From contig CAIOHN010000138.1 of NCBI GenBank assembly GCA_903858105.1, positions 1-33,825 on the forward strand: 33,825 bases of DNA, read 5' to 3'. Below are positions 7,999 to 15,496 of this stretch, one piece after another. The notes below the pieces were generated by a model. It was not told where the DNA came from, ran no database searches, and saw only the letters and a list, made by a program, of their open reading frames with translations. This DNA is from an uncultured Pseudomonadota bacterium. GTDB lineage: Bacteria; Pseudomonadota; Gammaproteobacteria; Methylococcales; Methylomonadaceae. Every line of letters starts with the position of its first letter. Position 1 is the stretch's first letter. The position numbers and the translations under genes are program-made.

Positions 7999-8260
7999 GC
8001 GGGGTTTCTTCCCGTATGCCGCGCCGAGCACCGAAGCTTTCGCCGAGAATAGCCCGTCAGGGGCGTCGCATGGATGCGACGCGTTGCCGAAGGGCCAGGG
8101 ACGGCCCTTTCGGCAACCCTCGGCGAAAGCTTTGGCGCGCAGGATCAAAGCGGCATCCGGGTGGCCTTTCTTTGGGTTACTTTTCTTTGGCCAAACAAAG
8201 AAAAGTGACTCGGCTGTCGGTCCGAGCACCGACATTAAAACAACCGTCGCGATAGCGACA
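7999..8260. repeat. Dispersed multi-hairpin repeat, copy 1
   Basis: Shares CCCGTATGCCGCGCCGAGCACCG, GCATGGATGC, GTTGCCGAAGGG...CCCTTTCGGCAAC, AAGCGGCATCCGGG and CCGTCGCGA(T/C)AGCGACA with 15140-15468. Stems 8034-8047/8119-8132, 8063-8071/8074-8082, 8083-8096/8103-8117, 8216-8221/8228-8233. Confidence 0.9.
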
Positions 8261-8288
8261 CCGCACAACAAAATAATTTCAAAGCTAC

Positions 8289-15139: not shown

Positions 15140-15468
15140 AGGCGTCCTCCCGTATGCCGCGCCGAGCACCGGAGCTTTAGAACGAATCAGCCCGCGGGGG
15201 TGCGGCATGGATGCCGCACGTTGCCGAAGGGGCAGGACGCCCCTTTCGGCAACCCCGTTCAAAAGCGAGGAGCGCAGGGGAAAAGCGGCATCCGGGCCGC
15301 CTTTTCTTTGGATCCTTTCTTTTGGCGGAGCACAAATTCGCCTGGAGCGAATTTGAACAGCCGACAGGCTGGCCCGAAGGGTGAAAGCCACGGATGGTTT
15401 TCATAGCGAAAGTATCTCGCCTGTCGGTGCGACTACCGACTTCTAATCAAACCGTCGCGACAGCGACA
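15140..15468. repeat. Dispersed multi-hairpin repeat, copy 2
   Basis: Homologous to 7999-8260; stems 15174-15184/15256-15266, 15200-15208/15211-15219, 15220-15233/15239-15253, 15423-15428/15435-15440, plus a copy-specific internal segment around 15325-15410. Confidence 0.9.
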
Positions 15469-15496
15469 CATCATTAAAGAATTAAATCTACCAAAA

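Follow-up and report, generated by a model that had tools for sequence, protein, structure and literature searches.

Repeats of the REP/RAYT kind are usually viewed as short hairpins that carry no genes. In integrons, each gene cassette is a lone and mostly unique foreign gene beside a folded site, and the cassettes are lined up in a tandem array with one attC each. For the REP-associated tyrosine transposases (RAYTs) as a class, flanking by inverted repeats is the rule (PMC2817692, PMC3733652); those described in one study always lie between inverted REPs and hold their position (PMC2817692). In the TIRtrons, RAYT-like genes lie between long inverted repeats, and some genomes have these repeats in dispersed form as well (Di Nocera et al. 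2013, PMC3733652); the motif GGGGWSAS has been reported for some of these TIRs (PMC3733652).

The repeat studied here lies in the window, that is, the whole stretch of 33,825 nucleotides that was analysed. It is probably one arm of a RAYT-linked, REPIN- or TIRtron-like element that has unusually long folded arms and carries cargo. I grouped it with the REPIN/TIRtron kind and not with the canonical REPs because it is too long and has no fixed GTAG foot. As in TIRtrons (TIRYTs), a RAYT-like gene was found between long inverted repeats which are unrelated to canonical REPs and are dispersed, also as dimers (PMC3733652). Unlike TIRtrons, the arms are 260 bases in length with a multi-stem fold common to several families, and most pairs hold genes other than transposase genes. 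REPIN and REP-RAYT systems likewise consist of inverted pairs of folded repeats that are long-lived, have many copies, and enclose between two of them a RAYT that holds its place in the chromosome (PMC3116915, PMC2817692); here, one clade of RAYTs in Methylomonas is flanked by the repeat in inverted orientation. In contrast, REPs have 20-40 bases with a conserved GTAG-type (or CGTC) tetranucleotide as the foot of the hairpin, while the arm of about 260 bases is ten times longer and bears cargo. The GGG of the GGA hairpin is preceded mostly by GCAG, GTAG, GAAG, TTAG, or ATAG, and AGGGG alone is kept. CGTC occurs at the terminal hairpin and is a candidate tag at most.

In the protein of this RAYT clade, DHLH, WE, and YIHYNP are present, which are the signatures given for RAYT subclass 2.2, but this subclass is listed with long GTAG REPs and not with such arms (PMC6006769). 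Mobile insertion cassettes and MITEs (PMC10969869, PMC5444012) also enclose passenger genes in inverted repeats and have no transposase of their own. The present arms differ in being long, covarying, and strand-specific, and neither a DDE transposase nor a target-site duplication was seen. Single foreign genes beside a folded site recall integron cassettes, whereas each unit here has two inverted arms and no tandem array, and no integron integrase was noticed between the arms.

Two solitary arms and their fold

Both copies in the window are solitary arms (Table 1). The earlier note had described them, from the letters alone, as a structured repeat with compensatory changes. All the stems that it named were located in both copies as inverted repeats in the sequence. 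Between copy 1 and copy 2, its hairpin 2 has three compensatory pairs and its hairpin 3 changes from GGGCC/GGCCC to GGGGC/GCCCC; both copies have the enclosing stem (with one mismatch in 11 in copy 2) as well as the GTCGGT-N6-ACCGAC and GTCGC-N4-GCGAC hairpins. Its limits of 7999-8260 and 15140-15468 were near and have been slightly refined. The conserved outer stem P1, the long hairpin P5, and about 70 bp inserted into the P5 loop of copy 2, found by profile search, had been overlooked, and so had the fact that each copy corresponds to one half of the outward inverted pairs that lie around foreign genes and around a seemingly dedicated RAYT. The two copies are real, but their number was too low, since BLAST found 33 places for the repeat in the same draft genome. 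Several contigs of this assembly (C46, C238, C371, and C75) end inside arms, and therefore even this copy number is probably an underestimate.

Table 1. Positions of the two arms, their parts, and a riboswitch in the window.
Feature	Position	Strand	Basis or remark
Arm copy 1, solitary	8002..8261	+	nhmmer profile match 8003-8261; covariance model E 4.1e-35 (copy in training set); alignment A1
Copy 1, 5' domain	8011..8161	+	inverted repeats; pairs counted over 87 copies
Copy 1, outer stem P1	8011-8022/8150-8161		CCCGTATGCCGC/GCGGCATCCGGG
Copy 1, enclosing stem	8034-8047/8119-8132
Copy 1, mini hairpin	8053-8055/8060-8062
Copy 1, GGA-loop hairpin 1 (hairpin 2 of the earlier note)	8063..8082	+	arms 8063-8071/8074-8082; loop GCATGGATGC matches CANGGANG
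Copy 1, GGA-loop hairpin 2 (hairpin 3 of the earlier note)	8083..8117	+
Copy 1, long hairpin P5	8176..8209	+	TTACTTTTCTTTGGCCAAACAAAGAAAAGTGA; arms GTTACTTTTCTTTG/CAAAGAAAAGTGAC, also written TTACTTTTCTTTG/CAAAGAAAAGT; inverted repeat
Copy 1, hairpin P6, GTCGGT-N6-ACCGAC	8216..8233	+
Copy 1, terminal hairpin P7, GTCGC-GATA-GCGAC	8246..8259	+	outer end of the arm, as in paired copies of relatives
Arm copy 2, solitary	15141..15469	+	profile matches 15145-15335 and 15408-15469; covariance model E 1.2e-32 (in training set)
Copy 2, 5' domain	15149..15296	+	P1 15149-15160/15285-15296; enclosing stem 15174-15184/15256-15266
Copy 2, GGA hairpins	15200-15219 and 15220-15253	+	arms of the first 15200-15208/15211-15219
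Copy 2, P6 and P7	15423..15467	+	sequence; profile match
Cobalamin riboswitch, Rfam RF00174	33480-33698	-	96.8 bits; sole Rfam match above threshold in the window

The fold z-scores against dinucleotide shuffles are -10.0 for copy 1 and -5.9 for copy 2, and no shuffle folds equally well. As the earlier note had proposed, genomic copies were collected and aligned. The alignment of 87 copies gave 72 consensus pairs, which were compared with 500 shuffles and with slid partners. In the alignment, 98.6% of the cells are paired, against 88.9% in the shuffles and at most 44.3% with slid partners. Changes on both sides were found in 33 of the 72 pairs, with 563 double-change cells against 154 in the shuffles, and none of the 500 shuffles reaches any of the five covariation measures. 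The slid partners weigh more than the shuffles because related copies can beat shuffles without any structure; both controls agree. Double changes occur in 5 of 8 pairs of GGA-loop hairpin 1 (whose loop is near-invariant), in 8 of 14 pairs of GGA-loop hairpin 2, and in 4 of 6 pairs of P6, where 100% of the cells are paired. A covariance model, also suggested at the time, recovered the full-length fold in other gammaproteobacterial families: the 5'-domain model of Methylomonas aligns end to end in P5 loci with E-values down to 3.5e-18 outside the family, values that are rough by the tool's own warning, though many lie far from the threshold. Selection on the fold rather than on protein coding, as had been argued before, is thus strongly supported by the compensatory changes and by this model.

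On the plus strand, the wobble cells are 127 G-U against 13 A-C. The large excess of G-U indicates selection on one strand, either as RNA or as single-stranded DNA (ssDNA) with G-T tolerated. This argues for a strand-specific fold, which RNA and ssDNA of one defined strand fit equally. Of the two forms offered originally, a folded RNA or a cruciform, the former accords with the strand bias, while a symmetric cruciform is disfavoured. Neither repeat matched an Rfam family above the gathering threshold in searches of the window and the region; a sub-threshold match of the GGA hairpin to RsmW (E 0.018) is weak. In many copies and genera, both central hairpins have GGA loops that fit the CsrA/RsmE consensus CANGGANG. 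The arms are a strongly covarying RNA or DNA family that is absent from Rfam.

Outward pairs in Methylomonas and beyond

When named genomes were scanned, the host genus proved to be Methylomonas, one of the methane-eating bacteria, and further matches came from Methylobacter and Methylomicrobium. Genus-wide, 34 of 37 genomes have matches, the window's own counted, and so does another family of the order. Where two copies are close neighbours, they point outward: in the loci read, 49 pairs are outward, 4 inward, and 17 on the same strand, a set which was partly picked for holding pairs. Two less biased counts are those of one complete genome, where the 40 best copies form 9 outward pairs, 1 inward pair, and no same-strand pair within 3 kb, and of the named-genome scan, where the two-hit loci are outward in 15 of 15. 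Outside the genus, two-copy loci are outward in 7 of 7. A full unit has two 260-base arms with their 5' ends facing inward and their GCGACAC ends outward. The spacing within outward pairs ranges from 35 to 2,900 bases, and 95 of the 112 distinct outward pairs collected have a spacer of more than 400 bases.

Some arms are arranged otherwise. The loci L035, L078, and L133 have tandem arrays of at least three same-strand arms. At L063:3192-3721, two tandem arms, which themselves differ, have a 25-base target repeat aaattaacaggttacaacaatggca between them. This direct repeat was considered as an insertion duplication and rejected; it fits tandem duplication followed by gene conversion.

Is the arm found in other Gammaproteobacteria? 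The most widespread module is P5: of 369 gammaproteobacterial genomes scanned, 26 from 24 genera have its pattern, and none has the reversed control. In several genera, paired GGA-loop hairpins adjoin P5 at near-constant spacing, and an Aeromonas record has the same arm plan as Methylomonas. In Pasteurella multocida (NZ_CP020346, L262:2600-3058), a very stable palindrome of 459 bases (fold z -15.2) lies between DUF484 and dapF and has two outward P5 hairpins, one at each end. Phages and viral contigs gave no match to the arms; among plasmids, the P5 hairpin region alone matches, in records of Aeromonas, Pasteurella, and Burkholderia.

Foreign genes at shared docks

The longer spacers hold one or two AT-rich, foreign-looking genes. 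The median GC of the 95 spacers longer than 400 bases is 0.43, against 0.54 for the loci overall, and the codon score is about 0 for cargo genes, while their neighbours have a median of 0.26. Two cargo genes match the NCBIfam model of the anti-phage dCTP deaminase, one above the cut-off and the other just below it; these deaminase genes are each enclosed by arms, and their hosts belong to two different families (L142:4508-6127 and L148:3935-5725). Further cargo comprises Mrr, KAP NTPase, HNH, DUF5677, ApeA, Shedu-type, and abortive-infection domain proteins, and a weak match to AbiU2. PADLOC gave 151 family matches over 70 cargo proteins and 16 over 70 neighbours, and the defence enrichment is read from this family count only, 98 of the matches belonging to one AAA ATPase. 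For Pfam, 42 families were obtained from 70 cargo proteins and 127 from 70 neighbouring genes. The deaminase and DUF5677 genes are sporadic, occurring in 3 of 37 and 2 of 37 genomes, and there are no arms at their homologues elsewhere.

In sister species, the same dock has related arms with inserts that differ in length and genes, and at one dock read in seven genomes there are six different main genes. Orthologous arms have an identity of 0.90 against 0.83 for other comparisons, while the two arms of one pair are no closer than random arms. Orthologous arms are mosaic, in that the P5 module swaps its sequence type and the remainder of the arm stays, which suggests gene conversion among arm copies. 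Of the 30 genomes in which the tusA-argJ intergenic region was read, 14 have it filled, and the other 16, including the window's own, have no arms there. Transfer of cargo between docks within the genus was mostly not seen, and no recent near-identical arm copies were found. Neither a target-site duplication nor a clean empty site was readable at tusA-argJ, at the G013 site, or at a third intergenic site; the flanking intergenic sequence has been replaced between species at every site examined. The G013 site, a candidate for an empty site, was rejected as a remnant is present there.

The inner ends of paired arms differ, with TCGCGACGG at one and TCGGGATGG at the other in 22 of the 28 pairs in which both ends could be typed. 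In 14 of 14 such pairs, the largest cargo gene runs from the TCGCGACGG end to the TCGGGATGG end. A rule of cargo orientation is only suggestive, as it cannot be seen from the typing of a single end, and several of these 14 pairs have a dock in common.

A RAYT clade between arms, and the rival explanations

Methylomonas genomes were scanned for Y1 transposases, followed by gene calling and arm detection, and a tree of 67 Y1 proteins was built. Where Y1 genes are adjacent to arms, the arms are outward with a single wrong-way match. Twelve arm-flanked proteins form one clade (support 100/100), whose members all have arms, always outward. Only 7 of the other 55 proteins are arm-adjacent, mostly on one side; when the IS200-like branch of 11 is left out, 37 of the 44 RAYT-type proteins outside the clade have no arms. 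The arm label changes 7 times on the tree against 16.8 times when shuffled, and is thus more clustered. Two arm-adjacent proteins, one inside and one outside the clade, were identified as RAYTs by a curated NCBIfam model. The RAYTs of the clade have intact HUH and Tyr motifs besides the signatures named above. A single orthologous dock accounts for 11 of the 12 RAYTs (10 loci), and therefore much of the RAYT-arm association is explained by one insertion that was inherited vertically. None of the 30 RAYT loci sampled in other families had such arms, so that a RAYT as the partner of the arms outside Methylomonas is unsupported; the known exception, the locus L153 in G046, was picked because of its arm. 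The link between enzyme and repeat is therefore good for Methylomonas and at most a possibility elsewhere.

From these sequence features, the arms resemble the termini of a mobile element that carries genes and is of a little-known type. I infer that an arm would fold as ssDNA of one strand and that the RAYT would recognise and cut the folded arm, mobilising arm pairs in trans. Between the arms lies the RAYT itself, a short spacer without genes, or foreign cargo of one or two unrelated genes, which is antiviral in some cases. Long-resident pairs may serve as docks where the cargo is replaced and the arms stay. It is conceivable, though doubtful, that this represents a gene-cassette system yet undescribed, in which long strand-specific folded arms across Gammaproteobacteria, served by a dedicated HUH transposase, bring foreign genes, often antiviral ones, singly into fixed chromosomal docks. 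The open-licence literature yielded no description of the arms or of their fold, nor of RAYT-type repeats that carry foreign cargo, which is weak evidence of absence. A REP/RAYT relative with such long structured arms, and with foreign genes, known anti-phage proteins among them, that differ at shared sites between sister species, would tie HUH transposases to the turnover of defence genes. Arm pairs also offer a sequence handle for finding uncharacterised single-gene cargo, in line with the smaller number of Pfam families for the cargo than for its neighbours.

Could the fold instead be selected as RNA? Transcribed arms might bind CsrA/RsmE or another RNA-binding protein via the two GGA-loop hairpins and thereby damp or time the neighbouring foreign genes, with the spread of the arms being secondary. 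The two adjacent hairpins fit the binding consensus, keeping their loops while their stems vary in many genera, and both the G-U excess and the weak RsmW match agree with this. However, since both flanking arms point outward, every pair has one arm that is antisense to the cargo, and ssDNA with G-T wobble would produce an identical strand bias; I regard the RNA explanation as unlikely. Passive homology is another candidate: the arms would be old repeats in intergenic hot spots, and gene content would be exchanged there by homologous recombination of the ordinary kind, acting either on the arms or on the core genes that flank them. Arms that are orthologous across species around differing cargo, and mosaic arms with swapped P5 modules, would be expected from it. 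It is quite improbable, as it leaves unexplained why the arms pair outward even in families that are unrelated, why the changes are compensatory, and why a RAYT clade is flanked by arms.

It is very improbable that the element is a composite MITE of the ordinary kind, with GTGTCGC...GCGACAC ends which a classical DDE transposase recognises and moves. The outer ends of a pair are indeed inverted repeats, and cargo-bearing mobile insertion cassettes without a transposase are known in general. Nevertheless, the RAYT is the only transposase found repeatedly within arms, no target-site duplication was found, and the insertion sequences between arms look by eye like IS110 and have core-like codon usage. 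These IS110-like transposase genes lie between arms in two species (L119:5427-6386, L120:11316-12275, and L169:1820-2797). The arms may be a target for IS110-like elements, as REPs are.
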